A stretch of 39,023 nt of DNA, from the IMG/VR virus record IMGVR_UViG_3300034072_001521, positions 1-39,023 of that record; one strand, written 5' to 3'. Below the pieces are notes generated by a model that saw only the letters and a list, made by a program, of their open reading frames with translations, was not told the origin of the DNA and made no database searches. This DNA comes from a virus. A program made the position numbers and the translations under genes. This document shows positions 4,136 to 25,116 of the stretch, piece after piece (position 1 is the stretch's first letter; every line of letters begins with the position of its first letter).

Positions 4136-4681
4136 ATGGTAGCTGTTGGGCCAAAACTTAAGGAATTGCGCGGACGGACAAAGCCGCGCGTGTCGTCACG
4201 GCGCGCCGCTGACCTGTTAGGTATTGGGCATTCTCGCTATGCATTTTATGAGAACCCCAACACCTACAAAAAGCCCTACCTGCCACTAGATTTGGCTAGG
4301 CAGATTGCTTCCGCCTTCGCGGATTATGGGATTGAACCTGCTGAGGTGATGGCATTGGCCGGACTAACCGACAGCGAGGTCGAACCCGAAGCGCGGGAAA
4401 TTGAGGCGCAGCGCCCCATCGCGCAGTTCGCAATCATGACGGTCGCGCTTCCTAGTGAAGCGGCCCTGACCGACATGTTCGAAAGCCTTCTGTCGTTGAT
4501 CCCCCCCGATGCGACGCGGGCCGAAGCTGCTCAAATCCTCGCTCGGCGGCTGCCATCTGGGTTTGGAGCTTGCGGACCTCTCTCGCTCGATCAATTGTCG
4601 GCGCCCATGCCTGCAGCCGGAGCAACTGCTCAATCTCCCGCCAGAGAGCATCGCGCGCATGGGCCATCGTCGCGCAGCTGA
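4136..4681 (+). CDS. CI-like phage repressor (HTH)
   Basis: HTH regulator transcribed opposite to the early operon. Residues ~5-60 contain a helix-turn-helix of the XRE type (SSRRAADLLGIGHSRYAFYENP) followed by LDLARQIASAFADYGIEPAEVMALAGL, typical of short phage repressors. The middle has an amphipathic helix (LTDMFESLLSLIP). There is no LexA-type peptidase domain, so induction need not be RecA-dependent (inference). The start is uncertain: ATG 4136 is used, with GTG 4109 and ATG 4124 in frame and no ribosome site for any. The last ~75 codons overlap the opposite-strand gene 4452-4787. Confidence 0.75.
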   Translation: MVAVGPKLKELRGRTKPRVSSRRAADLLGIGHSRYAFYENPNTYKKPYLPLDLARQIASAFADYGIEPAEVMALAGLTDSEVEPEAREIEAQRPIAQFAIMTVALPSEAALTDMFESLLSLIPPDATRAEAAQILARRLPSGFGACGPLSLDQLSAPMPAAGATAQSPAREHRAHGPSSRS

Positions 4682-4787
4682 CCTTGCAGGACGGGCAACG
4701 GAATTCGCATCCTGGCGTTAGTCTGATCGCTCGTCCGCTCAACTCACTATTGCCTAATTGTTCCCTATTTGTTCTAACCTTGGCCAA
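4452..4787 (-). CDS. Hypothetical protein with CXXC motif (111 aa), overlaps repressor 3' end
   Basis: Residues ~27-40 hold CEFRCPSCKVSC, a possible zinc site. Residues ~41-88 are a long charged helix (ARDALWREIEQLLRLQAW...EVRKLQTQMAAAERGFEQL). The helix looks genuinely coding; the last ~20 residues look like antisense of the repressor. The 230-bp convergent overlap with the repressor is unusual and one of the two frames may end earlier in reality. It could be a protein that tunes the repressor by antisense transcription, which is speculation. Confidence 0.45.
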   Translation of the reverse strand: MAKVRTNREQLGNSELSGRAIRLTPGCEFRCPSCKVSCATMAHARDALWREIEQLLRLQAWAPTIDRAREVRKLQTQMAAAERGFEQLRPASHRGGSTTEGFRTCRSGPLH

Positions 4788-4887
4788 AGTTGAGCCTGTA
4801 GGAAAGAGGAAAAGCGCGGACAGGAAATTTCCTTGTGGATAAGTCTGTTAGGGCCTCGTCGGCAGCGCCAACCTGTCCATATAGGCG

Positions 4888-4930
4888 AAAAAAAGAGAAT
4901 GGGCCGTCGCACCTGAGGATGGCCCATTCT
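4888..4930 (-). terminator. Intrinsic terminator for leftward late transcription
   Basis: A 10-bp perfect stem AGAATGGGCC/GGCCCATTCT (4896-4905 with 4921-4930) and a 15-nt loop. On the minus strand it is followed by a run of seven T (A-run 4888-4894). It lies ~100 bp after the stop of the last late gene at 5028. Confidence 0.75.
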
Positions 4931-4975
4931 TTGCTGCCTGAACTGAATGATCAGGTATGGTGCATTTTCTGAAAT

Positions 4976-5008
4976 GGGAGATCAGCAGGCAAAAGCCTCT
5001 GATCTCCC
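4976..5008 (-). terminator. Second strong hairpin after the late operon
   Basis: GGGAGATCAG/CTGATCTCCC forms a 10-bp stem capped by an inner AGGC-AAAA-GCCT hairpin, with one bulged C. It starts 20 bp after the stop codon at 5028 and precedes the T-run terminator at 4888. There is no T-run directly after it, so it may act as an mRNA 3'-end stabiliser or back-up terminator. Confidence 0.65.
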
Positions 5009-5027
5009 TTGCTCAGATATGGCCAGG

Positions 5028-8000
5028 TCAATCCCCGGAGATGGCCATTGCAAGCATTCCGGGCTCCGTGTTTCCGTTAATCACGATCGGCGAGGGAGAA
5101 AATGACATCTCGTCGACAATCAAATGATAGAGCGACACCGGGGCTAGATTGCCAGTCTTCACAGATTCTATGTCAATAAGAATTTCAGAAAATTTGGATA
5201 CGTCGACGCCATCAAAATCAGCAGAAACATAATTATTATCTGATCTTGGGCCTAATGGCAGCATACGTGATCCGATGAATATGAGATTATCTGGTTCCTT
5301 ATCGATGCCATAAATGGATAGCATCGTATCGCCGGTCGCAGCACCCTTGTGTGTTCCGACCTTCAAAGAGATTTTATCAATCCTATTAAAGTCAGAATGG
5401 ACGAACTGCGAGCATGATAGCCGCCCATTTTCGCCTTTGGTAAGAAGACGTTTAGCAATCGGTATTGATTCAGAAGAAAACACGATCCGTGAATTCGGCT
5501 TTCCCTTTTCCATAAGGTGTCCAGTCCTCTGGAGTGTCGGGAACTTCTTAAGAATTTGCTCTCCATCGAAGAAGTAAGCGATTTCCATTTCGTTTTTCCA
5601 GATCGAATATGCGTGGCTCAACTGATCTCTTTTGCTTCCACTTTTGATCTCGTTCCACCATGTTTCCATGGTCTGCTGAACCGGGGCGGCATTGTGACGG
5701 CGCAACAAGACGTTGCACTCGCCCATGCCAAGTTTCTCAGGGAAGCCCTCTGAAGCATATCGAGTCATCTGTTCATTGATGACGTCGGGCAGATCTTTGC
5801 CTTGACGAATGCAGGCCTCCGCCTCGTTGTACAGGCAGGTGCGATCGGGATGCTTGAAGACAAAGCTGTCGCCCTTTGAAATATGTTCGGCAATGAGCGG
5901 CTCCAGTGAGCCCTTGATACGGATATTGGCATCCACCCAAAGGCTCCATTCGAAGTCCGGAAAATATAAGTGCGGAAGAATTTTCGGATGTTTTGCCATC
6001 CTATTGGAGTCTTCGTCCTGAGATAGAGGGAATGGACGAATTTCCCAGACGGAGCTTTTGATATTCTCGTTATCGGTGAAGCAAATATATTTCGCACCAT
6101 CGATCACATGTTCTGGATCATAGAGCGCGTCCACGCCGCCAGCCAAGGCCGTGTAGATGACGAGGTTGTGGACGCGTCCATAGCCTTTGGAAATGAGAAA
6201 AATATCATTTCCGAGCATCTGGGATAGCTTCGTGAAATCGTAGTCTGCCTGATATTTCGCGTCCGTTGCCTTATGGCCTTCGGCAATGCCTGCGCGCCCA
6301 GGGGTTCCCTTCAGGCCGACGTTCATCGTCTCATGTTCGCGCACTAGCAATTTTGAGCCGGGGTAACCGCGCCAAAGGAAGCGATCGACGAGGCCGCTGC
6401 GCTGTACGCCGGGAATGTCGGATGTGCAGACTTCGGCTAGGAAGTGATAGGCCTCATGTCGCAAAGCGGTCTGGGCCAAGGACGTTGTGGCCTGTGGCTT
6501 GCCCTGCTTCCAAAGTCGGGAATAGTAATGATAATAGTGAATTTTATTCAATCCAACCATTTCATTCGACTTTAGGGCGTGGGACATGAATTCGATATAA
6601 TCACTTCGATACCAGTCATCGTCCTCCATGATCATCATCTTATCATAGCGGATGCGCTTCACCGCGAAGGCAAGCTGATTTGCCAGTGTATGCGGGAAAT
6701 CTTGCTTCGTCCGCTCACGCCGATGATATTCCGCATAGGGTGGGAGGTCAGCGACGTCAGGGAAGGGGACCATTCCGTCATCGACGATGATCCACTGATC
6801 AGGTTGCCTGGTCTGCGCCTTCATCCACGCCATGAGCAGTCTCAGCCCTTCCGGACGATCTCCAGTCGGGGTTACGACGCATACACCATCCTCATATTGT
6901 GTGTTGTGCTTCTGATGGGCAGGCGCTCGAGGCCGATTCATGCATGAGAGGTCCGCATTGCTCCAGGGGGATGGGACATCGGACTGACGAAGCGCAATTT
7001 GGGCGACGTCGAAGGTGAGGGATTTTCGATTTTTCACCGAAAATGAAAGCTCGATACCGTTTTCGGTATCTGGGATGATCAGCTTGTGCGTTTCCCAATC
7101 TTTGGCGACGGGCAGTGTGAACTCATTAATCGGGTAGCCGGATTGCTTGTCCTTAATCGAAATCTCGACAGAGGATTTCTTTGAGGCGCGGCACAAGATT
7201 TCAACTATATTGCGGGCCTTGGACGAAGAAAAGCTGTAGGGAAACGCCAAGTCGTCACCCTGATCATTGCTCATAGACATGAATTGCAGAATTTTGCTGG
7301 TGGTTCGGGTTCCGTCGCTGGCGACGACCCGCTGCCTCCGCATTTCCGTGATGTAGCCTGTCGGACTGATGGATGAGAGAGCGAAATGGTCGAGGTCGCT
7401 TCTTCGCCATCCAATAGATACGCGTGGCACCGTGGCGGGAATTGCGTCCTCACTAGGTACACCCTTCTCGGTGAACTCGAATAGTCCGACAGCCCAATCG
7501 CTCGGCCAATCGAACGATAGCGGTTCGGCAATTTGCCCGCGAACAAGGGGAGCAAACTGCGTTTTTACCGATAGATGCGGAAGAAGTAGAAGGCTCTTTT
7601 TGTTTTCGACTGGTGCTTTCTCGATCTTGACCCTGAAAGTGGCGCTTCCGCTTGGTGCCTCATGGAGGAATGAGAAGGGCAGATACCCCGAAGCGTCTGG
7701 GCCGCCTTTGCCGCCTCGCGCAAGCGAGAAGCGCGTGGTCTCAACGGCAAAGCCTGAGCGGTCGGAAAATTCAATATAAATCAGGGTGTCTCCGCCATGG
7801 GAGGCGTACAGCCCAGAAATCGATAAATTGTCACCGGCATTTACGGGTATATTGCTCCCGTGTACCGGGTGGTGGTAAATAAGGCCAGATATATGGCTTG
7901 GCAAAGCAGGCTTAAGAAATAATGTGCAGCCAGATTTTATGAAATGGTTTACACCACCAAATTCATAATTTATGCCAAATTCTGTCGAACCATATGGAGT

Positions 8001-8183
8001 CCACCCATCTGATCCATTTTTGAAAAAAGGGTCAGAGACAAATTCCACGCAATAGTCTTCAGCGTATTTTAGTCTCTTAATAAATCCTGGAACCGTTTCA
8101 ATAATATCATTCGGATAGGAGGAGACAAATTTATCCTTGTCTGATATGATAAATTTTGCATCTTCGCTATGCTTAACAAACAT
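5028..8183 (-). CDS. Giant multi-domain glycosyltransferase (GT-A plus DUF616/TOD1-MUCI70-like)
   Basis: A 1051-aa cargo protein. Residues 1-~430 are beta-rich with no recognised family, possibly carbohydrate-binding. Residues ~431-660 resemble a GT-A glycosyltransferase: GVCVVTPTGDRPEGL start, IIVDDG, and an acidic metal site MMIMEDDDW (~515-523). Residues ~696-850 match the DUF616 (TOD1/MUCI70) glycosyltransferase-like domain: YICFTDNENI, KILPHLYFPDFEWSLWVDAN, FKHPDRTCLYNEAEACI. The C-terminal ~170 residues are again beta-rich. No signal peptide or membrane segment is seen. It is the last gene of the leftward late block, followed by two hairpins, and is AT-richer than the tail genes. It may glycosylate lysogen surface polysaccharide or the virion; which one is inference. 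Confidence 0.75.
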   Translation of the reverse strand: MFVKHSEDAKFIISDKDKFVSSYPNDIIETVPGFIKRLKYAEDYCVEFVSDPFFKNGSDGWTPYGSTEFGINYEFGGVNHFIKSGCTLFLKPALPSHISGLIYHHPVHGSNIPVNAGDNLSISGLYASHGGDTLIYIEFSDRSGFAVETTRFSLARGGKGGPDASGYLPFSFLHEAPSGSATFRVKIEKAPVENKKSLLLLPHLSVKTQFAPLVRGQIAEPLSFDWPSDWAVGLFEFTEKGVPSEDAIPATVPRVSIGWRRSDLDHFALSSISPTGYITEMRRQRVVASDGTRTTSKILQFMSMSNDQGDDLAFPYSFSSSKARNIVEILCRASKKSSVEISIKDKQSGYPINEFTLPVAKDWETHKLIIPDTENGIELSFSVKNRKSLTFDVAQIALRQSDVPSPWSNADLSCMNRPRAPAHQKHNTQYEDGVCVVTPTGDRPEGLRLLMAWMKAQTRQPDQWIIVDDGMVPFPDVADLPPYAEYHRRERTKQDFPHTLANQLAFAVKRIRYDKMMIMEDDDWYRSDYIEFMSHALKSNEMVGLNKIHYYHYYSRLWKQGKPQATTSLAQTALRHEAYHFLAEVCTSDIPGVQRSGLVDRFLWRGYPGSKLLVREHETMNVGLKGTPGRAGIAEGHKATDAKYQADYDFTKLSQMLGNDIFLISKGYGRVHNLVIYTALAGGVDALYDPEHVIDGAKYICFTDNENIKSSVWEIRPFPLSQDEDSNRMAKHPKILPHLYFPDFEWSLWVDANIRIKGSLEPLIAEHISKGDSFVFKHPDRTCLYNEAEACIRQGKDLPDVINEQMTRYASEGFPEKLGMGECNVLLRRHNAAPVQQTMETWWNEIKSGSKRDQLSHAYSIWKNEMEIAYFFDGEQILKKFPTLQRTGHLMEKGKPNSRIVFSSESIPIAKRLLTKGENGRLSCSQFVHSDFNRIDKISLKVGTHKGAATGDTMLSIYGIDKEPDNLIFIGSRMLPLGPRSDNNYVSADFDGVDVSKFSEILIDIESVKTGNLAPVSLYHLIVDEMSFSPSPIVINGNTEPGMLAMAISGD

Positions 8184-8299
8184 TTAATGGTCCCCTGATT
8201 TAATGAAAATCGAGAAATTAATAATATAAAATTGCGACCATTATTTATATTTCATGTGTTCGACCCGGATTTCCAGAATCCGGAACGATTCTTGATAGG

Positions 8300-8656
8300 C
8301 TATGAATTGCGATATAAAATCTCAAGCACTGATTTCTTGAGATCGCGCGCTTCTGGTTCCGAAATGAGGCGCATTTCGTTACATATTTCTGACCGACCCA
8401 GAGGTTCTGTATTTTTGTTGGTCCAGCGTATCTGGTGATTGGAGCCTGGTACGTATAAAATCGTGATATGTAACGAATTTTCTGGCGATACTGCGATTGT
8501 TTTTTCTAATTTTATGATCGTTGTTATAGTCTGTTGGCTGCCATCTACTGGAGCGGCGGCGCTATTCCCGCGTCGGCGTCCACACGATTCCAAGTACTTC
8601 GATGGCGGTGTCTTCGGGGCTAACCAATGGCGGGGCTTCGTGCATCGACGGTTCAA
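8300..8656 (-). CDS. Possible small hypothetical ORF between two cargo genes
   Basis: The C-terminal ~80 residues have the look of a beta/alpha protein (SLHITILYVPGSNHQIRW, then EARDLKKSVLEILYRNS). The only ATG (8656) lies inside the SGNH gene, and the first ~35 codons look like its shadow, so the true start is unknown or uses a rare codon. 8184-8299 is AT-rich and holds no other recognisable feature. Function unknown. Confidence 0.35.
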   Translation of the reverse strand: MNRRCTKPRHWLAPKTPPSKYLESCGRRRGNSAAAPVDGSQQTITTIIKLEKTIAVSPENSLHITILYVPGSNHQIRWTNKNTEPLGRSEICNEMRLISEPEARDLKKSVLEILYRNS

Positions 8657-9635
8657 GATCGAGCGAGTTCAGGTGGTCTTCTGATATGCCAGGCTCGATC
8701 GTTACCGGTTTTGAGACGCTTCCGCTCAGCGGGCGAGCAAACTGCTTTAGGAAAACTCTGGATGATGTCGTCGAGAAAAAGCCGTCGAACATGTTTTTGG
8801 CAAACGATCGGTTAGATCCTTCAAATTTTACGTAGCCAGTGTCGCCACAAGTGTTTGTCAGTAGGCCTAATATAGCTCCTTCCACATGGATTTTGGCCTT
8901 GGTGGCTGGAAGTAGCCTGACGCCGTTCCCCTGAAAAATCGAGGTTTGGCGCGAAATTAACTCGTGTGGACCCTCGATGCTTAGCGCGGATGTGTCCGAG
9001 ATAACGGCGTTGAGAGGTGCTATTGCTGGCCGGTCGAGTGCAAGAGAAGAGGGTTGCGACGTTGCTTGTGAGATCTGCCTGAGTGCTTCATGGCCGATAA
9101 TTTCTGCAGCCTTAACACTGTAATGCATGTCATCTGCATATGCTTGAGCAAGTCTGGTAATGCCATAATCTTGATGCATCATCAAAATAGACGTGGCATC
9201 AATATACTCATAGTTGAAGTGGTCTGCAATTGCTTTGTAAGTTGAAATTACTGGGCATTTTCCTTGTAGGTAATTTTCTAGATTATATCTTGGACACATA
9301 ATAAGAAATCTGCCGTGGCAGCCATTTTTTCTTGATAATTCGCAATAATCAAACAGAACCCTTTCAAGAAGGCCTACTGAATATAATCCGTTTCTGTAAT
9401 ATGAAATGTCGTTTAAGGTGTATTCAAATAGGAATTGAGAATTTGGATTTAGAAATCCTTTCATTTTTGCATTCGAAAGTCCGTACAGGCTTGTCGACGC
9501 ACCAAGCATATGACGAACTGCGCGATCGTCGCCCCATGCCTTTTTTATGACAGCGGTGTAACCATCGCTCTTTCCAGTGTTGGATCCACCTATCAATACG
9601 ACTTTAAGAGGAGATGATTCAGGAGAATCCAGCAT
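8562..9635 (-). CDS. SGNH-type hydrolase with beta-rich C-terminal domain
   Basis: Shows the SGNH hydrolase blocks: nucleophile motif VVLIGGSNTGKSDG (Ser about residue 18 from this start), TLND (block III Asn) and YADDMHYS (catalytic Asp/His). Family members are esterases, often acting on acetylated sugars. The second half (~150 aa) is beta-rich and ends in TAIEVLGIVW. The ATG at 9635 is preferred (GGGAG 11 bp upstream, starts just before the SGNH domain); the frame is open to an ATG at 9797 inside the D gene, giving 411 aa, and the AT-rich codons 9635-9740 may be coding. It sits directly after D, a common cargo position in P2-like phages. Possible O-acetyl esterase acting on surface glycan; substrate unknown. 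Confidence 0.7.
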   Translation of the reverse strand: MLDSPESSPLKVVLIGGSNTGKSDGYTAVIKKAWGDDRAVRHMLGASTSLYGLSNAKMKGFLNPNSQFLFEYTLNDISYYRNGLYSVGLLERVLFDYCELSRKNGCHGRFLIMCPRYNLENYLQGKCPVISTYKAIADHFNYEYIDATSILMMHQDYGITRLAQAYADDMHYSVKAAEIIGHEALRQISQATSQPSSLALDRPAIAPLNAVISDTSALSIEGPHELISRQTSIFQGNGVRLLPATKAKIHVEGAILGLLTNTCGDTGYVKFEGSNRSFAKNMFDGFFSTTSSRVFLKQFARPLSGSVSKPVTIEPGISEDHLNSLDLEPSMHEAPPLVSPEDTAIEVLGIVWTPTRE

Positions 9636-9750
9636 GTCTTCACAAACTCCCGTGGCATTGGAAGTGCGATTTTTAGCGAAATTAGATGAGGCGTCAAATG
9701 ATGCGGTGATTTGGATTTTTTTGACTTGAAATTGTGAATATGCGCCCTGG

Positions 9751-10758
9751 CTAAGTTCCCGTTTCCATCTCGAGCGCTGTCGTGAAGCCGCCGCCATTGT
9801 CGAGGTTGTGGGTGACTTCGCTGATCAGCCAGGTGCCATCAATCCCCGCCTTGATGCCGGTCACGCGGGCGCGCAGATCGACGTAGATATCGGCACGACC
9901 GAGCGCCAGGCGCATGTCGAGTGTGGCGGGCGCGCGCTTGAGCCGCGCCTGTTCGGCGGTGGCGGCACGGTGCGCCGATACTTCGTCCGCAAAGGTTTTG
10001 CGCAGCCGCTTCGCTCCATCCTTCTCGCCTACGGTGACGGTCTGTCGCTTCGCTGCTTTGCGATCGTGCCAGCTGGCCGTGACCCCGGCTTGCCCATCGC
10101 GCTTCTGCCGTTGCCAGTTGTGCCCATCGCCGGCGCTGCGGCGGATGGTCAGGCTGGGCAATGCGGTGCCGCTGGTGGTGGTGCCGGCGCCCTTGCGCGC
10201 GAAGATCAGCTTGCCGTCCTTGATGGTCGCAACGGCGTCATTTTCGCGCCCCAGGCGGCGCAGGAAGGTGATATCGCTTTGCCGGCTCTGACTGACGGTC
10301 GGCAGCGCGATCGACGCCAGATCGGCCGCTATGCGCGGCGTGAGGCCATTGCGGCCCGCCACCTCTGTCAGTACGGCGCCCAAGCTCGTATTCTGCCAGC
10401 TCTGTTCCCGGCGGTTGCGGATGTCGCTGGTGAAGTCGGCGGCGCGGGCGCGAATGCGGACCTGATCTGGCGGGCCGCTATGGCTGACATCGTCCACCTT
10501 GAACGTACCCTTGTCGATCAGGCCCGGCGTTACGTCACGGCCCTGTTTCCAGCCCAGGGCAAGGCGCAGCGTTGCCCCCTCCGACGGGAGGGCCAAGCCG
10601 CCATCGCTATCGTCCAGCACGATATCCAGCTGGTCCGCCTCGTCCCCCCGTTTTTCCGACAGGGTGAGCGACACCAGGCGCGGGCGTATCTCGCCGGTCA
10701 GGTCGGTGTCGCCCAGCGTGACACGGAAATCGGGGATATTGGCGATGCGATCCGTCAT
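9751..10758 (-). CDS. D: Tail protein gpD (late control gene D protein)
   Basis: 335 aa, similar to P2 gpD, a baseplate hub/tail component. Landmarks are FRVTLGDTDLTGEIRPRLVSLTLSEKRG near the N-terminus, the SWQNTSLGAVLTEVAGRNGL segment, QSRQSDITFLRRLGRENDAVATIKDG, and the C-terminal GTWLISEVTHNLDNGGGFTT. In P2 it is the last gene of the F operon, as here. Overlaps the upstream U stop by ATGA. Confidence 0.92.
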   Translation of the reverse strand: MTDRIANIPDFRVTLGDTDLTGEIRPRLVSLTLSEKRGDEADQLDIVLDDSDGGLALPSEGATLRLALGWKQGRDVTPGLIDKGTFKVDDVSHSGPPDQVRIRARAADFTSDIRNRREQSWQNTSLGAVLTEVAGRNGLTPRIAADLASIALPTVSQSRQSDITFLRRLGRENDAVATIKDGKLIFARKGAGTTTSGTALPSLTIRRSAGDGHNWQRQKRDGQAGVTASWHDRKAAKRQTVTVGEKDGAKRLRKTFADEVSAHRAATAEQARLKRAPATLDMRLALGRADIYVDLRARVTGIKAGIDGTWLISEVTHNLDNGGGFTTALEMETGT

Positions 10759-11150
10759 GCCGCCGTGACCTGGTCCGCCACGCGTAATAGATCGATGGCG
10801 AAGTCGATGCGCTGGGCGCGGCCATCAGTCATCAGATAGGCATGGCGTTCGTCGATCGCCTCGATCACGAAATCGCCGAATACGGTGCCGGTGCCGTCGA
10901 GCAGGGGCCATGCCTCGCCCGATGCGGCCATGGTGCGCAGATCGTCGATCGACACGCGGCCATCCGTGATTTCGGCATAGACGGCGCCCGACAGGTTGAT
11001 GGTTTCCTCGCCCGGCCCGACGAACTGGGTTGCATCTCGGGCGCCGACGCGGGCGCTGCGCGCGTGGCGCCAGGATGCGCGGCGCTGCAGTTCGTCATGG
11101 GCGAGGGTCGGCAGATCGAAGATGAACATGCCCAGGGCCATCAGCATCAA
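10755..11150 (-). CDS. U: Tail terminator-like protein gpU
   Basis: 131 aa with the gpU start pattern (MALGMFIFDLPTLAHDELQRR) and a central GPGEETINLSGAVYAEITDGR stretch typical of the family. gpU caps or organises the tail tube end in P2-like phages. It lies between T and D, with ATGA overlaps on both sides; position and sequence agree. Confidence 0.9.
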   Translation of the reverse strand: MMLMALGMFIFDLPTLAHDELQRRASWRHARSARVGARDATQFVGPGEETINLSGAVYAEITDGRVSIDDLRTMAASGEAWPLLDGTGTVFGDFVIEAIDERHAYLMTDGRAQRIDFAIDLLRVADQVTAA

Positions 11151-13603
11151 TAATCCCCTTCGTCGCCGAAGCCGCGGCCTCGCCGTTCGCGCTCGATCTG
11201 TTCAATCGCCTTGCGCACTTCATCGGCAATGTCGGTGGCCGACGCATTGCCGCCGCCTACATCGATCTTGATGGAATAGGTCACCGCGATCGGCGCCGCG
11301 CCCATGGCACCGCCGGACTGGGCTGCCGCCGGCGCACCGACGGCCATGGCTGCGCTGCCCGCGCCGATGGCCAGGGCACGGGTCATTTGCCCCGACAGGT
11401 CGGATATCTGTCCGATCGGCGCGGACGTATTGTTGGCTAGCCCCTGATCCAGGCCGCTCATCACATGGCCGCCGATTTCGGCGAACACGCGCGACGGGGA
11501 GTGAATGCCGAGCAGCTTGCGCAGCCCATCCGGCAGCATTTTGCCTATTCTGCCCACGATCGCCGTCAGGTTGGGAAAGGCGGCCGTCATGCCGGCGACC
11601 AGGCCATCGATCAGATGGCGGCCGATCGCCGCGAAATCGAGCGAGCGCAGATAGGAGAGAACGGGCAGGAATGCCCGGATCATCATGCCCAAGGGCGTGA
11701 AGTTCAGAAAGGCATCGACCAGGGCGCCGAGCGCCGCGACCGTGTTGCTGCGGATCGTCTCCCACAGGCCCGCCAGCCAGCCCACCATGGCGCCCCAGTT
11801 ATTGTAGATGACATAGACCAGCGCGGCTAGCACGGCGATGGCCGCCACGATCAGCAGCAGCGGCCCGAGGGCAATGCCCAGCGGTGCGGCGGCGGCTGTA
11901 ATGGCGGCGAACGCCAATCCGAGGCCACCCAGGACGACCAGCAGACCCGATCCCACGCCCATGAAGATCATGAGCGCTTTGGTGATGCCGGGATGCTCCT
12001 GCGCCCAATGGCGCAGGCCGCTGGCGGCCCACTGCACAAGGCCCGCCAGTTTCACGACGGTCGGCAGCAATGCCTTGCCCATGGTGATGTTGAGGCCCGA
12101 CAGGGCGTTGGTGGCAAGGCCGGTCGCGCCCTCCGTCGTGCCGATGCGGTTGAGGAATTCCGCCTGCATTGATCCGGCATAGCGGCTTTCATCGCCGACC
12201 AGCGCCAGGCGGTTCTTGAGACCGTCGAGATCGGTCAGCATCGGCGCGATGGCGGCAACGCTTTCCGAGCCGAAAAGCTGGGTCAGCAGGCCCGACTGCT
12301 GATCGGCATCCAGCTTGCCGATGCGGGACATGACATCGACGATCGCGCCGGCGGCGTCGGTCTGCATGCGCTTGGCGACATCGGTGGCCGACAGGCCCAG
12401 CGCCTTGAATGCGCCCTGCTGGCTTTTCGTCGCCGCTTCGCCCTTGGTTAGGGCCAGCATCGTGTTCTTGATGCCGGTGGCGGCCACTTCGCTGGGTACG
12501 CCGATGGAATCGAGCGTAGAGCCGAGCGCCGCAATTTCCGGCGCGGCGAGGCCCGCGACCTTACCCAGCGGGCCGATGCGGGTGATGATGTCGGTGACAT
12601 TGGCCGCCTTACCGCCGAAAGTGTTGGTCAGCGCATTGACGCGGTCGCCCAGCGCGCGAACGCCGTCCTGGGGCAGTTCGAAGGCGGTGCGCCATTTGGC
12701 CATGGTTTCGCCGGCGACATCGGCGGTCATGTCGAACGCCACGCCCATCTTCGCCGCGTCGGCGGTGAATTCTTCCAGCTGCTGGCGCTGGTCGGCCATG
12801 GGCTGGCCCATCTTGTCCATGCCGACACCGGCAGCGCCGGCGGCCGCCGCGATCTGGGCCATGCCTTCCGCCGGCACCGGGATCGTCTCGCTCAGATCGA
12901 GGAAGTCTCGCGACATTTGATCAATCTGCGGCTTGGTCATGTTGGTGACCTTGGACACGTCGGCCATGGCGCTTTCCAGCGTCATCGCCTGCTTGGTCGC
13001 GGCGACCACGGGCACGCCAGCGGCGGTGCCGGCGGCGATCATGCCCAGGCCCGCACCGGTCGCCTTGGCACTGATATCGTTCAGCTTTTGCGTGTTGCTG
13101 TTGGCCCGGTTCAGCTTTTCGACGGTCCCGATCTGCTGTTTCAGCGCCTTGTTCGCATCATAGACACGGCTCGACAGCCGATCTTCATGGGCGGCGAGGT
13201 CGGCGACGTCGATGCCGGCGGCCTCCAGCTGGCGCTGCAGCTGCTGCAATTCCTTGCCGCCGGCATCGACCCGATCGGTCAACATGCTCGCCTGGCGCTG
13301 CGCCTTTTCAAATTCGGTGCGCAGCTTCTTGGTCGGGGCCTGCGTCGCCTCCAGTTCGTGGCGCAGCTGCTCGACGCGAGCCTGTGTCTGCTGCAGCTGC
13401 TGATGATCGGATGCGAAGCGCCCTTCGGCCGCTTTATATCCGCCGACCTGTTTCTGCAGGGCGTCGAGCGATTTCAGCTGCTTCTGGGTTTCGGCCAGGT
13501 CGCGGCGTGCGCCCGACGACGCATTGGTGATGGACTTGAGCGGCGCGGTGACGCGGTCCAGCCCCTCAAGGATCAGCTGCATGCGGAGGTTACGATCGGC
13601 CAT
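11147..13603 (-). CDS. T: Tail tape measure protein gpT
   Basis: 818 aa, close to P2 gpT (~815 aa). Residues ~20-175 are a long Q/E/K/L-rich coiled coil; the centre contains a TIGR01760-like tape-measure core (SAMADVSKVTNMTKPQIDQMSRDF, MALTKGEAATKSQQGAFKALGLS), and residues ~540-605 are strongly hydrophobic, as expected for the membrane-interacting part. The length sets tail length. Its ATG lies inside the 3' end of the E' frame (14 bp overlap). Confidence 0.95.
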   Translation of the reverse strand: MADRNLRMQLILEGLDRVTAPLKSITNASSGARRDLAETQKQLKSLDALQKQVGGYKAAEGRFASDHQQLQQTQARVEQLRHELEATQAPTKKLRTEFEKAQRQASMLTDRVDAGGKELQQLQRQLEAAGIDVADLAAHEDRLSSRVYDANKALKQQIGTVEKLNRANSNTQKLNDISAKATGAGLGMIAAGTAAGVPVVAATKQAMTLESAMADVSKVTNMTKPQIDQMSRDFLDLSETIPVPAEGMAQIAAAAGAAGVGMDKMGQPMADQRQQLEEFTADAAKMGVAFDMTADVAGETMAKWRTAFELPQDGVRALGDRVNALTNTFGGKAANVTDIITRIGPLGKVAGLAAPEIAALGSTLDSIGVPSEVAATGIKNTMLALTKGEAATKSQQGAFKALGLSATDVAKRMQTDAAGAIVDVMSRIGKLDADQQSGLLTQLFGSESVAAIAPMLTDLDGLKNRLALVGDESRYAGSMQAEFLNRIGTTEGATGLATNALSGLNITMGKALLPTVVKLAGLVQWAASGLRHWAQEHPGITKALMIFMGVGSGLLVVLGGLGLAFAAITAAAAPLGIALGPLLLIVAAIAVLAALVYVIYNNWGAMVGWLAGLWETIRSNTVAALGALVDAFLNFTPLGMMIRAFLPVLSYLRSLDFAAIGRHLIDGLVAGMTAAFPNLTAIVGRIGKMLPDGLRKLLGIHSPSRVFAEIGGHVMSGLDQGLANNTSAPIGQISDLSGQMTRALAIGAGSAAMAVGAPAAAQSGGAMGAAPIAVTYSIKIDVGGGNASATDIADEVRKAIEQIERERRGRGFGDEGDY

Positions 13604-14047
13604 TCTTCTTTTTCCCGGTTTCGGGCGGCTTGGCCCGTTTCGCAGCCTGTTCGCGCCAGCCCATCAGTTCGGGCAGCGTCATCGGGTCCATGACGTCGGG
13701 CGACCAGTGGAAGATGATCGCCACATCCGCCATCGCGTCATCTACTGAGCGTGGGCATCCGCATGATGCGACTTCTGCAGCAAAAAACCGCCAATTTCCG
13801 TGCCGATGGCGAGCAGGTCGGCAGTGTCGAGATTGGCGACATCGACTTCGGTGATGGTCGGCATGGCGATGCGCGGCACGATCTTGATCAGAGCGTCGAC
13901 CTTGAGCTGGCCCAGATCGACCAGGGTGAGGCCGCGCAGTTCGCCCGAGCGGGGCTTACGCAGCTGCAGCGTGTCGATCGTGGTTTCGCCCTTGATGATG
14001 GGGGTGTCGAGCGTGACGGTGCGGAAGACGGGACCGGTGTCGTTCAT
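13590..14047 (-). CDS. E': gpE+E' tail assembly chaperone made by -1 ribosomal frameshift
   Basis: Reading E from 14047 and slipping back one base at T-TTT-TTG (minus-strand bases 13787 to 13781) passes the E stop and stays open to TAA at 13590-13592, giving ~152 aa (P2 E+E' ~142 aa). The added part ends with the E' signature AIIFHWSPDVMDPMTLPELMGWREQAA. P2 uses the same heptamer T-TTT-TTG. E and E+E' act as tail tube/tape measure assembly chaperones. A free E' start at 13733 (MADVAIIFHW) also exists. Confidence 0.85.
13742..14047 (-). CDS. E: Tail assembly chaperone gpE
   Basis: 101 aa, phage tail assembly protein family (TITEVDVANLDTADLLAIGTEIGGFL near the end; RTVTLDTPI at the start). It is the zero-frame product between FII and T. 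The slippery heptamer lies in codons for GGFL, close to the end, so that a fraction of ribosomes make the E+E' form. Confidence 0.9.
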   Translation of the reverse strand: MNDTGPVFRTVTLDTPIIKGETTIDTLQLRKPRSGELRGLTLVDLGQLKVDALIKIVPRIAMPTITEVDVANLDTADLLAIGTEIGGFLLQKSHHADAHAQ

Positions 14048-14074
14048 GGTGAAAGCCTATGCGTGAGGGGAGGG

Positions 14075-14097
14075 CGGCCCGGCGCGCGGCCGGGCCG
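14075..14097 (-). terminator. GC-rich hairpin between FII and E
   Basis: CGGCCCGGC/GCCGGGCCG forms a perfect 9-bp stem with a 5-nt loop in the 55-bp gap after the tail tube gene. There is no T-run. It may lower expression of E/T relative to the abundant tube and sheath (attenuation or 3' end protection), which is inference. Confidence 0.5.
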
Positions 14098-14102
14098 AAG
14101 GA

Positions 14103-14615
14103 TCAGAAGATGCCGATGGCGTTGCGGATGGCGGCGCGGCGATCGACGCCGTCGACAATCTCGATGCCCGCCAGGACGTCGATTTCGATTTCGGTGCGGC
14201 CGTTCCAGACCAGCTTGTAATAGACCAGGCCCGAGGTGACGGAGAATTCCCCGGCCTCGCCGACTTCCTGATCGCCGAACTCGATTTCCTTGTGACGGCC
14301 GCGCACGATCACTTCGACGCTGTCGACCGCGCCGCTGTCGTCATCCTGATAGGCGCCGGCGAAGCGGAGGTAGACGCCGTTGACGGTGGTGATGCCGAAC
14401 TGGCGCAGGATGTCGCGCATCGGGCCGCCGAAGGTGGAGGTCATCTCCAGCGCCTCCAGCCCCATGTCCATTTCCGCGACGCCGCCCATGCCGCCGCCCC
14501 GCCACTCCTCCGTCTTGCGGGTCAGGGTGGGCAGGGTGACGGTCTTGCACTCGCCGATATAGGCGAGGCCTTCGTTGAAGAGCATCATGTCCTTGAGGGT
14601 GCGGGCCATGCCCAT
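14103..14615 (-). CDS. FII: Major tail tube protein gpFII
   Basis: 170 aa (P2 FII ~172). Recognisable by its N-terminus (MARTLKDMMLFNEGLAYIGE), LPTLTRKTEEWRGGGMGG and the C-terminal VYYKLVWNGRTEIEIDVL. Forms the inner tube of the contractile tail. AAGGA lies 9 bp upstream of the ATG at 14615. Confidence 0.95.
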   Translation of the reverse strand: MGMARTLKDMMLFNEGLAYIGECKTVTLPTLTRKTEEWRGGGMGGVAEMDMGLEALEMTSTFGGPMRDILRQFGITTVNGVYLRFAGAYQDDDSGAVDSVEVIVRGRHKEIEFGDQEVGEAGEFSVTSGLVYYKLVWNGRTEIEIDVLAGIEIVDGVDRRAAIRNAIGIF

Positions 14616-14660
14616 GGCGATATTCCTTTGATCGAGAGGGGGGGGAGGCGCGCGTGGGCG

Positions 14661-15842
14661 TCAGCCGGCGTCAGTCAGCTGGGCGGCGAAGTCGGCGAAA
14701 TATTCGTCGGTGATTTCCTGGTAGAAGCCGAGATCCTCAAGCGGCGGCGGGACGGTATATTTGTAGCGGATGCGCAGCTTGCCGGCCTTGAGGCTGTCCA
14801 CCGGATTGGCGGTTTCATCGTACCAAGCCTCAAACCCCAGAACGACGCCGGCGGCCTTGAGATTGCGGCCCAAGCCGTTGATGGTTTCGATGATATCCTT
14901 GGCCAGGCTAGGCGTTAGCGGCTTATCCATCGCCCAGTCCATGCCCTTGGCGATCGTATCGGCCAGCAGCTGGGCGACGCGAACGCCGCTTTCGAAAACG
15001 AACAGGGGATCGTCGGAACAGGTGCGGTTGCCCCAGAAGCAAAAGCCGTTGCTCTTGCGGATCAGCGCCGTGATCTGGGCGGCATTGAGCAGGCCGGCAT
15101 CGGTGTCCTGATCCTCGATATCCCAATGCATCGGCTGCGACAGGCCGACAACGCCATCGACAGCGACGTTGGACAGCGTCTTCTGCGGCCCGGTCTGTTC
15201 GTCGATATAGGCGCGCAGACCCATGGCATGCGCCGCCGCGAAGCTGGTGACATTGGCGCTGGCATCGGTGTCCCAGGCGAGGAAGTCGGGCATCAGCAGC
15301 ATCAGTTCGCGCTGGCTGAAGTTGGCGCGATAGAGGGTGGCGGCCGCGACGGTCGCGCCGATCGCGCGGGCATAGGCGAAGGCGCGCAGCTTCTTGGCGA
15401 CGACGGCCAGCGCGGTGGTGACTGCCTGCGTCTCCAGCCCCGGCGTGCCCAGGATGCGCGGGATCACGCCCACTTCTGCCGACGCCGATAGCAGGGCCTG
15501 CATTCCAGTGCGGATGCCTTCGGCCGTGATAGTGCCGATGGCATTGCTGGCCGTTTCGGCCGCATCCTCGCCTTCTTCGACGCGGATCAGGACGATGATG
15601 GGCCGGGTGATGTCGGCGATGGCGCGCAGCGAGCGGGCCAGCGTGCCTTCCGCGCCGATGTCGCCGATCGCCGCTTCGATGTCGCTGACCAGGATAGGCT
15701 TGTTGAGCGGGTAGGCGGCGGGATCGGCATCGGGCGCAGTGCCGACCAGGCCGATGATGGCGGTGCTGACCGCCGTCAGGGTGCGGGCGCCGGTCGATAC
15801 TTCGGTGACGGTGATGCCATGCTTGAATGCAGCGGTGGGCAT
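14661..15842 (-). CDS. FI: Tail sheath protein gpFI
   Basis: 393 aa (P2 FI ~396). Sheath landmarks: HGITVTEVSTGARTL near the N-terminus, TAIIGLVGTAPDAD, the conserved FCFWGNRTCSDDPLFVFESGVRVA and the C-terminal LRIRYKYTVPPPLEDLGFYQ. Contractile sheath surrounding the tube. AAGG precedes the ATG at 15842 by ~9 bp. It follows W with a 14-bp gap; in P2 FI follows G, so the order is changed. Confidence 0.96.
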   Translation of the reverse strand: MPTAAFKHGITVTEVSTGARTLTAVSTAIIGLVGTAPDADPAAYPLNKPILVSDIEAAIGDIGAEGTLARSLRAIADITRPIIVLIRVEEGEDAAETASNAIGTITAEGIRTGMQALLSASAEVGVIPRILGTPGLETQAVTTALAVVAKKLRAFAYARAIGATVAAATLYRANFSQRELMLLMPDFLAWDTDASANVTSFAAAHAMGLRAYIDEQTGPQKTLSNVAVDGVVGLSQPMHWDIEDQDTDAGLLNAAQITALIRKSNGFCFWGNRTCSDDPLFVFESGVRVAQLLADTIAKGMDWAMDKPLTPSLAKDIIETINGLGRNLKAAGVVLGFEAWYDETANPVDSLKAGKLRIRYKYTVPPPLEDLGFYQEITDEYFADFAAQLTDAG

Positions 15843-15856
15843 GGTTGGGCCTTTCT

Positions 15857-16207
15857 TCAGCGGATGAGGGGCAGGAGGATGCGGGAGAGGCTGGCGGTGG
15901 CGATGTCGCCCTTGCGTTCCGCCTCGATCGACAGGGACGCGGCGCCGGGGCGGTCGCCGGGCACAAGTTGCAGCCGGCGGAGGCGGATGCGGTCTTCCCA
16001 GCGTGACAGGGCGAGGGCGGTCGCGGCGAAGATGCGCAGGATGTTGGCGCCGGTCATGGGCTGGTCGACCAGGTCGGGGACCAGCGAGCCATATTCACGA
16101 CGGCCGACCAGCGTGCCGATGGGCGTGCCGATAATGTCGGCCATGGACTGGGCGATATGGTCGATACCGTCGAGCCTGGCGCCGGTGGTGCGGTCCATTC
16201 CGGCCAT
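15857..16207 (-). CDS. W: Baseplate wedge protein gpW (gp25-like)
   Basis: 116 aa (P2 W ~115), GPW/gp25 family: GLDxIDHIAQSMADIIGTPIGTLVGRREYGS at the N-terminus and RFxR-type basic C-terminal region. It is a baseplate wedge component with lysozyme-like fold in T4 gp25 relatives. Overlaps the V stop by one base (TGATG). Confidence 0.92.
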   Translation of the reverse strand: MAGMDRTTGARLDGIDHIAQSMADIIGTPIGTLVGRREYGSLVPDLVDQPMTGANILRIFAATALALSRWEDRIRLRRLQLVPGDRPGAASLSIEAERKGDIATASLSRILLPLIR

Positions 16208-16818
16208 CAGACGGGCGGCCCAGATTGCGCCGCGCCGGCCTGCACCTGGCCATGTTTGTGCGATTTGAGGCTGATCCCGCCAGCGATAACGTCTTCGTTT
16301 GCCGTGATCTTGCCGCTGACATTGAGGCTGCCCGCAATATGCGTGTCGCCGACGATGCCGGTATCGCCGATGATCGTTACACCGCCGGGTGCATCAATCG
16401 TAACGCTGCCGCCCTCCGGCAGAGTCGCGGTCAGTTCATGCGAGACATGGTCATAGGCGATGATCGCGCCGTCGGGATATTCGACCAGGCTGACATTGGG
16501 GTCGGTGGAAGGCGGCGGGCAGGCGTCGGAATAGAGACCGACGATGACCATGGCCGCGTCAAGATCGCCTTCGGGCGCGAGGATCAGGCATTGTTCGCCC
16601 ACGCTGGGCGGTGACCAGGCGCGGATATTGCCGGCGCGCTGGGCAATCCACGGGATGTTGCCGGTGAGGATATCACCGCTTTGCGCCGTGCAGGTGCCGT
16701 TGGCCAGATCGAGCGATGCGATCGTACCCAGGCGAAGCACCTCGCCGGCTGCAGCTTCGGGATCAGAAAAACGCGCCATGGCGGCGACCATGGCGCGACG
16801 ACGATTGGCGCGCGACAT
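16207..16818 (-). CDS. V: Baseplate spike protein gpV
   Basis: 203 aa (P2 V ~211). N-terminal OB-fold-like part (VLRLGTIASLDLANGTCTAQSGDILTGNIPW), a repetitive beta-helix (GGVTIIGDTGIVGDTHIAGSL), and a C-terminal SHKHGQVQ with the HxH pair that binds iron at the spike tip in P2-like phages. The central membrane-piercing needle of the tail. The start ATG directly abuts the palindrome at 16819-16855 and has no other ribosome site; an in-frame ATG at 16779 (MARFSD) is an alternative. Confidence 0.93.
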   Translation of the reverse strand: MSRANRRRAMVAAMARFSDPEAAAGEVLRLGTIASLDLANGTCTAQSGDILTGNIPWIAQRAGNIRAWSPPSVGEQCLILAPEGDLDAAMVIVGLYSDACPPPSTDPNVSLVEYPDGAIIAYDHVSHELTATLPEGGSVTIDAPGGVTIIGDTGIVGDTHIAGSLNVSGKITANEDVIAGGISLKSHKHGQVQAGAAQSGPPV

Positions 16819-16855
16819 GCCGGCATATGGAGAGGTAGCCTCTCCATATGCCGGC
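16819..16855. repeat. Perfect 17-bp palindrome upstream of V (phage palindrome copy)
   Basis: Arms of 17 bp containing the core CATATGGAGAGG, 3-bp spacer TAG (CTA in the direction of V). It fills the 45-bp gap between the preceding stop (16864) and the V start codon. GGAGAGG inside the left arm is also the only SD-like sequence for V. See findings. Confidence 0.9.
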
Positions 16856-16863
16856 TTGGAAGA

Positions 16864-17742
16864 TCAGGCCGCGATAGCAGGGATATCGTAGCGGTCGCCG
16901 CACAGCTTTTCGATAAGGGCGATCAATCCCGCATCATCGAAGCCAAAGCCGCGATGGACGCCGAATTCCGCAAGATCGGCATAATCGGCCACGCCTGCGC
17001 TAGCCGGACCAGCGCAGCCCAGGCGCAGCGTCCCCTCCGCATTGACGACGTTGCCGGTGCCAACGGTCTTATCATAGAGGCCACGATCGATGCGGATGCG
17101 GGCGGTGTTGGTCGTGTCCGAGAAGCCGATCATGACCAGGCGCGGGCCATCGGCAAACAGTGACGTGAACGCCGGGGTAAGCGCCGTCGTATTGAAAATC
17201 TGCGTACCGCCGATCTGCAGGACGAGCGCGCCGGCGCTGGTCCACTGGAAAAATGTTCCGGGATTGCCGGACCCCGGCACCAGATTGTTGCCCCAGAAAT
17301 AGACATTGTCGCCGGGGCCGGGACGCCCATAGAACCAGATGAAGAAATCGCCGAACTGCTGGTCGCCATGGACGCTCAGCCCATTGTCGAGGCGCAAGTG
17401 ACCGTTGGTGGCACCCTGACCGAACCTGAGCGCATGGTTCCGGTTATACGCCTCCCAGATAGCGGCATCGATCGTCGCCCCTTCGACCAGGTCGAGGTCG
17501 GGGCTGATGCCGCTGATCTGGGTCGGCAAGGCAACATTGCCCGGCACCATAATCGCGTCGCTATTGGGCGCGCGGGTCTGCCATCCCGCCGAAGAAAAGC
17601 CGTCGCGCCCCCTGCCCCAGAAGACGAGGCTCGGATGGTCGCACAGCGCCTTTTCGTCGGGAATGGCCGCCAGGTCGATCCCGAGAAGGGCGGCAGCGCC
17701 GGGGTTGATATAGGGGTTCTGTTTGAAAGAGGTTCCGGCCAT
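16864..17742 (-). CDS. Virion-associated lectin-like protein (292 aa), probable
   Basis: Not a recognised named gene. The N-terminal ~90 residues are a polar linker (NPGAAALLGIDLAAIPDEKALCDHPSL). The rest alternates beta-strands (DFFIWFYGR, NVYFWGN, LVLQIGG, RLVMIGFSD, ADLAEFGVHRGFGFDDAGLIALIEKL), like a concanavalin/LamG jelly roll that ends in a short helix. It lies in the fibre region between the 629-aa protein and V. Probable surface-binding virion protein; function inferred from context only. Confidence 0.6.
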   Translation of the reverse strand: MAGTSFKQNPYINPGAAALLGIDLAAIPDEKALCDHPSLVFWGRGRDGFSSAGWQTRAPNSDAIMVPGNVALPTQISGISPDLDLVEGATIDAAIWEAYNRNHALRFGQGATNGHLRLDNGLSVHGDQQFGDFFIWFYGRPGPGDNVYFWGNNLVPGSGNPGTFFQWTSAGALVLQIGGTQIFNTTALTPAFTSLFADGPRLVMIGFSDTTNTARIRIDRGLYDKTVGTGNVVNAEGTLRLGCAGPASAGVADYADLAEFGVHRGFGFDDAGLIALIEKLCGDRYDIPAIAA

Positions 17743-17784
17743 CGGTTAGCTCCAGACCTTGAGGGATGGGGAAAGGGGCGGCCG

Positions 17785-19674
17785 TCAGCGCGGCGCGCGG
17801 AGAGTGAGGGTGGCGTAGTCGGCCGGCGCAGCGACATCGACGCTGAGCCGCCCAGACAGGACCGTGCCTTTGACGGTGGCGTTGCGCGAACTGCTGACGG
17901 TGAATGCGCGGCCGACCAGGTCGGGCGGCAGTTCGATCGTGTCGAGGCCCGACCTGTTGTGCCAGTCGATCATGATATAGGCCGCCTCGCGCGTCCGGGC
18001 GACGGTGAAGGCGGTGCGATCAGGCCGCGTGACGCCGACATTGCGGAAAATGACACAGGAAAAATATTCCCCCGCCGCCGCCATGAAATCGCCCTTGTCG
18101 ACCAGCCTCCAATAGCGCTTGCCGGTATCGCCGCGAATTTCCATTGCGTGATCGGTGATCAGGCTGCGGCGAACATCGTCGGCGGCGCTGCCCACCGGGA
18201 GGAAACCCGAGGCATCGAAATAGCCGCTGTCATAGAGCGCATAGGCGCGCAGCAGCGCCGGGCCGGTCGCCTCGATCTTGGCGGGGGTGAATTTGACGCT
18301 GCCTTCGTCATTCGGGTCCGGCGACACCATCGTCAGATCGGCGGGCACCTTCATCGAATAGTTGATGGTGGCGCCATTGTACGCGAAGGGCAGAGTGTTC
18401 GGGATGTAATAGTCCGCCGCCGCCGTGTCGAAGGCACCCTTCGCCTCCATCTGCATCCCCATGATGTCGGAGATCGGCATAGGCTGAAGGACCAGCCAGT
18501 CGCGGTAGATCGCCAGGCCGCCAAACTTGTCATATTCATAGACCGTCGTGACCCGCAGGCTCGCGGTTCGGCCGGTGGGATAGAGGCTGGCCGGGCGCGT
18601 CTGTTTCCATGCGATCATCTCCGCCTTCGACAGATATTCGCACACCTCGACGAACTGCGCAGCGTCCCGAACCGTATAGACCCCGTTCAGGGTGCCGGAG
18701 GTCAGCGCGCCGCGATCGACGCGGCCAACCTCTTCGCCATCGACAAGGGCGCGCAGCTGCAGATCCTGGGCGGGCGGCATCCATTGCGCGTCGGCGCGCG
18801 CCGTGACCACGATGTTCGCCGTCGCGGTGGCGCCGGAGACATGGGTATAGGTGCCGGTCTGCGGCATGCTGCTGCTGTCCACGCGGGTCAGCAGAAGCTG
18901 GGTCGTGCTGACGATTTCCACCAGGACAAACTGGTTACCGCCATTGGCCCAGATCGAGCCGATATCGGCCGCCGTCTTGCCATGGGCCGCCGCCGTCACG
19001 AGGCTGGAGGGGTAGCCGTGGTTGGCGCCGATCGTGGTCCCGAAGATATGATCCGGGGTGGCGTCATCCTTGGGCGCGCGAACGGTGACGCCGCCGACCA
19101 CATCCTTGTCGGGGTTGAACTGCCACCGGGTCTGGCGCGCGTTGGCCACCGGGTTGGAGGGACCGAACCAGCGCTGGATTAGCGGCCCGCTGAGCTTGCT
19201 CTCGATATAGCTCAGATTGCCGGCGCCATTGAGGTACAGGGTCGCCGTGCCGGCATCGGCCGCCAATCCGGCGGCTTGAGGCATGATCAGCTTGCCATTG
19301 CTGGCGATACGCCGTTTCGCATTGTCACTGCGCGCGACATCGGGTGCGCCGTGGAGGTCGGTTTCCAGCGAAGCCAGCATGGCGACGCGCGGAATGACGC
19401 CGCTGATGACCGCAACGTCGCCCACAATGTCGGTACGGAGCGCCTGCGCATCGACGCCAGAGACGTTGACCAGCTGCATCTTGCCGGCGAGCAGCGCCTT
19501 TTCCGAACCGTCGAACGTCATGCGGGCCTCCGGTGCGCCGGCGAGATTGGCTGTCAGGGATGCGTTCATGCCGACCAAGGGGATGGTCTCGCCATTGAGG
19601 CGGTCCAACTCCGCATCGACTGCGGAGAGCATCCTATCCGCATAAAGCCCCGGCTTGGTGTAGCTCATCGTCAT
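17785..19674 (-). CDS. Large virion/fibre-region protein of unknown family (629 aa)
   Basis: Repetitive beta-rich protein with an N-terminal YADRMLSAVDAELDRLNGE helix and strands throughout (ATATANIVVTA, YEYDKFGGLAIYRDWLVLQPMP, FMAAAGEYFSCVIFRNVGV, SVDVAAPADYATLTLRAP). The C-terminus resembles a beta-sandwich. Its place downstream of the SGNH esterase and ConA-like gene suggests a fibre or baseplate accessory. No enzyme motif was recognised. Antisense frames as long as 604 codons exist but are shadows of this GC-rich gene. Confidence 0.65.
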   Translation of the reverse strand: MTMSYTKPGLYADRMLSAVDAELDRLNGETIPLVGMNASLTANLAGAPEARMTFDGSEKALLAGKMQLVNVSGVDAQALRTDIVGDVAVISGVIPRVAMLASLETDLHGAPDVARSDNAKRRIASNGKLIMPQAAGLAADAGTATLYLNGAGNLSYIESKLSGPLIQRWFGPSNPVANARQTRWQFNPDKDVVGGVTVRAPKDDATPDHIFGTTIGANHGYPSSLVTAAAHGKTAADIGSIWANGGNQFVLVEIVSTTQLLLTRVDSSSMPQTGTYTHVSGATATANIVVTARADAQWMPPAQDLQLRALVDGEEVGRVDRGALTSGTLNGVYTVRDAAQFVEVCEYLSKAEMIAWKQTRPASLYPTGRTASLRVTTVYEYDKFGGLAIYRDWLVLQPMPISDIMGMQMEAKGAFDTAAADYYIPNTLPFAYNGATINYSMKVPADLTMVSPDPNDEGSVKFTPAKIEATGPALLRAYALYDSGYFDASGFLPVGSAADDVRRSLITDHAMEIRGDTGKRYWRLVDKGDFMAAAGEYFSCVIFRNVGVTRPDRTAFTVARTREAAYIMIDWHNRSGLDTIELPPDLVGRAFTVSSSRNATVKGTVLSGRLSVDVAAPADYATLTLRAPR

Positions 19675-19680
19675 CCCCCT

Positions 19681-20430
19681 CTAGATAGCCAGGTCGATGG
19701 TGGCGAAATGCGCCTTGAGGCGCGCGTAGAGCAGGTCGATCTGCGCATTGCTCAGGATGCCGACGATCAGGCCGGCGCCGGCAATGGCGAGGTTCGCGGG
19801 CGTCGGCACCGTGTGGTCATGGTTGTTGCCGATGCTCCAGGGCACCGGGCCATAGACCCCGGTCGCGTCGATCGCGGCGACCACATCGGCCGATGCGGTG
19901 ATGCTGCGGCGATGCAGCGAGCAGCCATTGGGCTGGATGCAGCCCACCAGCAAATCCCAGCCGGCACCCGTGCCGACGTTCAGTGGCAGGCTGGGCGACC
20001 CGATGAAGCCGACGCCAGAGCCGGTGCTGATCAGCATCTTGTAGGCGCCGCCGGCCGCCGGATCGATGACCAGGTCGACAAAGCGCTGGTTGGCGCCGCC
20101 CGACGAACCGATGAATGTTTCGGCGACGGGCGAGGCTGCACTGCTATGCGTCCTGACCAAGGCCCAGAGCGTGAAATATTCGCCCAGGTCGCGCGGCGCG
20201 ATCGGCGTGTCGGTCCACCCGCCAGCGCCCCAGCCCGCGCCGAAAGAGACGCCTTCGGGCGAAACGTCATTGCCGTTGAGGCTATAGTCCCAGCCCTGGT
20301 GATTGGGATGGTCGAGACCCAGAAGCCAGGTCGCAACCTCGCCTTCGAAATCGACCGGTCGCTGGGTCCAGCCAAGGCCGAGGCCAGAGGCGTCGGCACT
20401 GTCGGACATAAGGATTTGTGGGACGGTCAT
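19681..20430 (-). CDS. Virion-associated lectin-like protein (249 aa), probable
   Basis: Start taken at ATG 20430 (MTVPQILMSDSADASG), because the upstream part of the open frame is a shadow of the SGNH gene. The sequence is a chain of strands (EYFTLWALVRTH, RFVDLVIDPAAGGAYKMLI, WDLLVGCIQPNGCSL) ending in an amphipathic helix (GILSNAQIDLLYARLKAHF), the ConA-like layout also seen in the 292-aa protein at 16864. Possible glycan binding; inferred. Confidence 0.55.
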   Translation of the reverse strand: MTVPQILMSDSADASGLGLGWTQRPVDFEGEVATWLLGLDHPNHQGWDYSLNGNDVSPEGVSFGAGWGAGGWTDTPIAPRDLGEYFTLWALVRTHSSAASPVAETFIGSSGGANQRFVDLVIDPAAGGAYKMLISTGSGVGFIGSPSLPLNVGTGAGWDLLVGCIQPNGCSLHRRSITASADVVAAIDATGVYGPVPWSIGNNHDHTVPTPANLAIAGAGLIVGILSNAQIDLLYARLKAHFATIDLAI

Positions 20431-20440
20431 GTCTGGCCCT

Positions 20441-22063: not shown

Positions 22064-22066
22064 CGT

Positions 22067-22501: not shown

Positions 22502-22504
22502 GGT

Positions 22505-25076: not shown

Positions 25077-25116
25077 GGCGCCCATGTCGTTGAGACATGA
25101 TGCGCATGGCCATGGG

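Follow-up and report, generated by a model that had tools for sequence, protein, structure and literature searches.

A two-domain transferase gene behind tail gene D

The window analyzed here is the complete 39,023-nt stretch of the IMG/VR virus record IMGVR_UViG_3300034072_001521, a P2-like phage, and the gene under study is transcribed from its minus strand immediately past tail gene D, at the end of the late block where the sequence-only reading had placed it. Genes D, U, T, E, FII, FI, V, I, J, S, P and Q of the backbone were identified by family, and genes M, N and O were assigned from position and conservation. By terminase, the closest records are viral, with identities of 98–53%, and those relatives that are annotated comprise a Sphingomonas plasmid at 70% identity and Zymomonas elements at 61%; the host therefore probably belongs to the Sphingomonadales. 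The recombinase of this P2-like phage (88–987) is of the serine type, with Resolvase and Recombinase domains. The cassette behind gene D and the protein that it encodes comprise the following features:

4834–9750, no strand assigned: cargo cassette 1, delimited by DNA alignment with the closest relative (G001), the swap falling exactly at the D stop codon
5028–8183, minus strand: fusion protein P0001, 1051 aa, with two glycosyltransferase domains between beta-rich regions (ORF, Pfam)
5112–5444, minus strand: C-terminal beta-sandwich, residues ~914–1024 (model, pLDDT ~70)
5544–6170, minus strand: TOD1/MUCI70 (DUF616) GT-A-like domain as modeled, residues 672–880, with D751, W842, D853 and Q854 (Pfam, model)
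6180–6893, minus strand: GT2-type GT-A domain as modeled, residues 431–668, with motifs D468-D469, EDDD 520–523, D600 and PGR 628–630
6894–8183, minus strand: N-terminal beta-rich region, residues 1–430 (model; no sequence relatives found)
8562–9635, minus strand: candidate SGNH-like hydrolase of 357 aa, counted from the ATG at 9635, with motifs GGSN, ND and DxxH read by eye; GC 0.46
9751–10758, minus strand: tail gene D, the final backbone gene ahead of the cassette

The P0001 frame opens with an ATG, and 8 nt ahead of it lies a ribosome-binding site, AGGGG. Its GC content is 0.496 and its GC3 is 0.55, below the backbone genes at 0.62–0.66 and 0.72–0.90, respectively, confirming the AT bias that had been noticed in the gene. 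In PHROGs, residues 675–864 match a moron family annotated as 'glycosyltransferase'. The highest mean hydropathy of any 19-residue window is only 0.9 on the Kyte-Doolittle scale, and P0001 is therefore predicted to have neither a membrane helix nor a signal peptide.

We modeled the protein in two parts, residues 1–672 from an alignment with 46 GT2 relatives and residues 660–1051 from an alignment with 31 DUF616 relatives. For the first transferase domain, the Pfam match to Glycos_transf_2 (PF00535; residues 435–546, E 1e-3) scores 19.4 bits, under the curated cut-off of 23.3, which the near relative P0002 exceeds with 38.9 bits. The structure model settles this weak match: pLDDT is mostly above 90 across residues 431–668, and comparison by VIA-align gives a Z score of 18.1 to the fucosyltransferase WrtF (rmsd 2.2, 174 aligned), about 18 likewise to SpsA, and 16 to TarS and TarP. 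In the 47-row GT2 alignment, D469 and E520-D522 are invariant and D468 is nearly so, and P0001 keeps D468, D469, E520-D523, D600 and R630. As modeled, residues 431–668 are a GT-A-like transferase with a DD and a DxD metal motif.

The second domain matches Pfam TOD1_MUCI70 (PF04765) over residues 722–865 with an E value of 5.6e-17 and 62.5 bits, against a cut-off of 21.4. Its pLDDT exceeds 90 over residues ~672–880, and the alignment shows the conserved D of the DxN motif (D751) and the WWNEI...RDQ signature (W842, D853-Q854) intact in P0001. The model reaches a Z score of 13 to BoGT6a, the ABO enzymes and alpha-1,3-galactosyltransferase (GT6), with glycogenin and LARGE1 also listed. Residues 672–880 are thus predicted by the model to be a GT-A-like transferase, one that resembles the retaining families GT6 and GT8. 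Within this family, the plant protein MUCI70 has been reported as a galacturonosyltransferase (PMC10576798) and TOD1 itself as a ceramidase (PMC4309442). The sequence-only reading had proposed two glycosyltransferase domains in these 1051 aa; both middle regions model as transferase folds, and structural comparison assigns a GT-A fold to each.

The beta-rich character proposed for the flanks holds in outline, in that residues 280–400 (N2) model as a beta-sandwich with pLDDT of 65–85 and a further sandwich is modeled near the C-terminus, whereas the model of residues 1–270 is unreliable. For both part models the VIA-align rows span the transferase domains only. Neither residues 1–430 nor the C-terminal 170 residues have relatives among the collected loci, and a comparison of residues 1–430 with plasmids returned only weak aldehyde-dehydrogenase matches that we judged to be chance. 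Scans of viral records and genomes with full-length P0001 matched the DUF616 part alone, or nothing. A carbohydrate-binding module at the N-terminus is a by-eye reading that has no match in Pfam. P0001 was also considered as a virion fiber, a candidate that was dropped because the two catalytic domains are each intact and P0001 matches no tail family. P0001 is a new domain architecture within a known class of prophage cargo.

The SGNH-like candidate shares the cassette with the transferase gene, and its longest ORF begins at 9797, within D. Pfam GDSL gives a weak match (E 0.17), the G-N-D-H blocks being read by eye, and the protein has no relatives in viral contigs (single-protein scan), phages or plasmids.

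Cargo exchange in the slot behind gene D

At the DNA level, the window aligns with its closest relative at 91% over 9750–16851; the match stops at the D stop codon (9751) and returns at 4833, such that ~4.9 kb carrying the transferase and SGNH-like genes in the window is replaced by 3.4 kb in the relative. This exact exchange of a cassette strongly supports the view, first taken from base composition, that the gene is cargo. The relative carries a Septu system in the slot (L091:3984-6016), composed of PtuA (PADLOC 5e-151) and PtuB (6e-68). In other relatives the same slot holds a TIR protein (G015), a SIR2-STAND protein (G045), an HNH protein resembling restriction enzymes of type IV (G014), a DndB/DpdB-like protein (G019) or a match to the PADLOC family named cll (G026). 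In a further relative (G029; L116:6967-13661), a five-gene glycan cassette lies between D and the repressor and ogr, and encodes two GT2 enzymes, an FAD oxidoreductase, a xylose-isomerase-like (sugar-isomerase-like) protein and a PMT_2-like membrane protein. Slot contents were annotated in some of 20 relatives, from which no frequency is implied, and among these the slot behind D is a cargo hotspot, used mostly for defense, with a different glycan cassette in at least one case. In PADLOC, neither the transferase nor the SGNH-like protein of the window matches a known defense family.

Three further genes lie in other variable parts of the window:

20441–22063, minus strand: tail fiber protein, swapped relative to G001
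25311–26318, minus strand: class I methyltransferase (GC 0.37) that occupies the interval from S to J, a second variable slot
26421–26774, minus strand: 117-aa ORF without a family match, also in the second slot

The tail-fiber region as a whole (16851–22834) is swapped relative to G001, and its ORFs at 16864, 17785 and 19681 are without a family match. A GQS motif, read by eye, suggests that the tail fiber protein may be an SGNH-type esterase. The second hypervariable slot (25086–27128, S–J) holds other AT-rich genes in relatives and is empty (66–83 bp) in G029 and G045. The methyltransferase has no relatives in viral contigs (single-protein scan).

Relatives and ancestry of the two domains

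P0001 was found in none of 50 related phage records. DUF616 itself is present in 13 GenBank phage records and 33 viral contigs, and the suggestion that the family is rare or unusual in phages was therefore overstated. GT2 and DUF616 domains are fused in viral proteins of 919 aa (L230) and 457 aa (L237/L238) and are encoded by adjacent genes in viral L140, L167, L176, L181, L185, L204 and L207; the pairing is not unique to the window. In L167 (9176–11372) and L185 (9080–11375), the pair is flanked by the major head protein gene on one side and head-tail connector genes on the other, and in L140 (8689–10675) it lies among connector genes. An MptE-like (DUF115) gene or fused domain accompanies the pair in L140 and L167. 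It is possible that such MptE-like/GT2/DUF616 insertions among head and connector genes are virion glycosylation cassettes. Two other DUF616 arrangements were observed. An unrelated prophage (L150:8510-11905) encodes a 1131-aa RgpF-DUF616-GT61 fusion immediately behind its tail-spike gene, with GC below the surroundings, and another viral protein (L138:9998-12601) has two DUF616 domains linked by a coiled-coil-like stretch.

The best two-domain relative is an RgpF-GT2-DUF616 protein of Cereibacter sphaeroides plasmid p.A (CP031752, AXQ96024.1), with 40% identity over residues 427–864. At this plasmid locus a sulfotransferase gene adjoins and a sugar ABC permease is encoded nearby. A tree built from 72 GT2 domains groups P0001 with Cereibacter and Alloyangia (100/98) and sets it away from the phage enzymes of virion modules. 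The DUF616 tree, which has 39 domains, puts it into a 98/91 clade that also contains Cereibacter and the virion-module phage copies, and within that clade the window copy does not separate from the phage ones. Sampling of bacteria was thin, consisting of two plasmids in the GT2 tree and of one plasmid and seven genome loci in the DUF616 tree, and these placements, including the bacterial, RgpF-linked affinity of the GT2 half, are therefore a lead rather than proof.

Proposed surface-glycan conversion, its alternatives and known systems

Our preferred explanation, to which we give an even chance, is that P0001 is prophage cargo for lysogenic conversion and that an altered surface glycan excludes competing phages. 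Expressed in the lysogen, a protein with no signal or membrane helix would act in the cytoplasm, where the GT2 domain would add one sugar and the DUF616 domain a second, probably to one growing polysaccharide of the host surface. The beta-sandwich modules may hold the glycan or oligomerize the enzyme, and the SGNH-like neighbor may edit acyl groups. The capsule, exopolysaccharide or O-antigen changed in this way would remove or mask the receptors of competitor phages. Consistent with conversion, both GT-A folds retain their active-site residues, the other occupants of the slot are mostly defense systems, a glycan cassette occupies the slot in G029, the GT2 half groups with Cereibacter and Alloyangia, and the closest two-domain relative sits at a plasmid polysaccharide locus. 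The prophage GT-A enzyme TarP, described below, provides a precedent for receptor conversion.

Several observations speak against conversion. The gene has the orientation of the late operon and follows D immediately, and a scan of 4500–11200 gave no terminator-like site against 7.5 expected; the gene could therefore be a late gene. Promoter-scan matches are at most modestly above chance. No flippase or membrane transferase gene adjoins the P0001 gene, and related GT2/DUF616 pairs lie inside capsid and connector modules elsewhere. Given the absence of P0001 from the 50 related records, no conservation backs a benefit to the phage.

A late gene would fit the main rival, namely that P0001 glycosylates a virion protein (capsid, tail or fiber) and thereby shields the particle or adjusts its adsorption. 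The strand shared with the tail operon, the pairs at head and connector genes in L140, L167 and L185 with their MptE-like (DUF115) associates, and the DUF616 clade that the window copy shares with virion-module copies all favor virion glycosylation. Nevertheless, we consider it unlikely, as the GT2 half lies with bacterial RgpF-linked enzymes and away from the virion-module ones, the window has no MptE-like partner, and the slot of relatives contains defense or glycan cargo. Of the two roles that the sequence-only reading had offered, receptor blocking thus gains indirect support from the defense-hotspot slot and the relative's glycan cassette there, and virion decoration retains its smaller probability through the pairs in capsid and connector modules.

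Ranked next, and also doubtful, is cargo for host fitness, in which the surface glycan is changed to the gain of the host in its habitat (in biofilms or in interaction with plants or grazers) and not for phage exclusion. The bacterial relatives on polysaccharide plasmids and the methyltransferase cargo in the second slot are in keeping with this, but the other occupants of the slot behind D are mostly defense systems. A recently acquired, transient and decaying passenger without function, to which the absence from related records and the atypical GC might point, is improbable given the intact 1051-codon frame, the clear ribosome-binding site and the retention of every invariant residue.

Returning to lysogenic conversion, a more specific proposal is that a single protein, combining an inverting GT2 activity, a retaining-type DUF616 activity and its own beta modules, is a glycan machine that serves as an anti-phage module interchangeable with Septu, TIR and SIR2 in one slot. 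We advance this tentatively and lean against it. If true, surface-glycan rewriting would be one swappable option of a phage defense hotspot. More broadly, conversion would tie DUF616, a poorly studied transferase family, to phage competition. The data name a defense hotspot for P2-like phages of the Sphingomonadales type that differs in position from the one known in E. coli, and suggest that glycan-rewriting cassettes and classical defense systems are interchangeable cargo. The unnamed genes of the slot downstream of D become candidates for new defense or conversion systems, and the hotspot adds interest to the new domain architecture.

P0001 can be compared with several known systems. The Cereibacter protein has the same domain order, fused, although an N-terminal RgpF replaces the beta-rich modules of P0001, the C-terminal sandwich is missing, and the gene belongs to a plasmid polysaccharide locus, whereas P0001 is phage-borne. 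The GT2-DUF616 proteins and pairs of other phages bring both domains together as P0001 does; several differ in lying in virion modules with MptE-like partners, and their GT2 domains come from other branches. Plant MUCI70/RGGAT1 has the Pfam family in common with the DUF616 domain but is a pectin enzyme, unlike the phage protein. In E. coli P2-like phages, a hotspot for anti-phage systems adjoins cos, between gpA and gpQ (PMC9122126); it is likewise a small exchangeable slot between conserved P2-like genes with anti-phage contents, but the slot described here differs in position, being behind D and ahead of the repressor region. Finally, TarP is, like P0001, a prophage-borne soluble GT2-type GT-A enzyme, and it is reported to convert a phage receptor, podophages having failed to infect S. 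aureus once it was lysogenized by tarP phages (PMC9650247). TarP has a single transferase domain, acts on a Gram-positive polymer, wall teichoic acid, and is without DUF616 or beta modules of the P0001 type.
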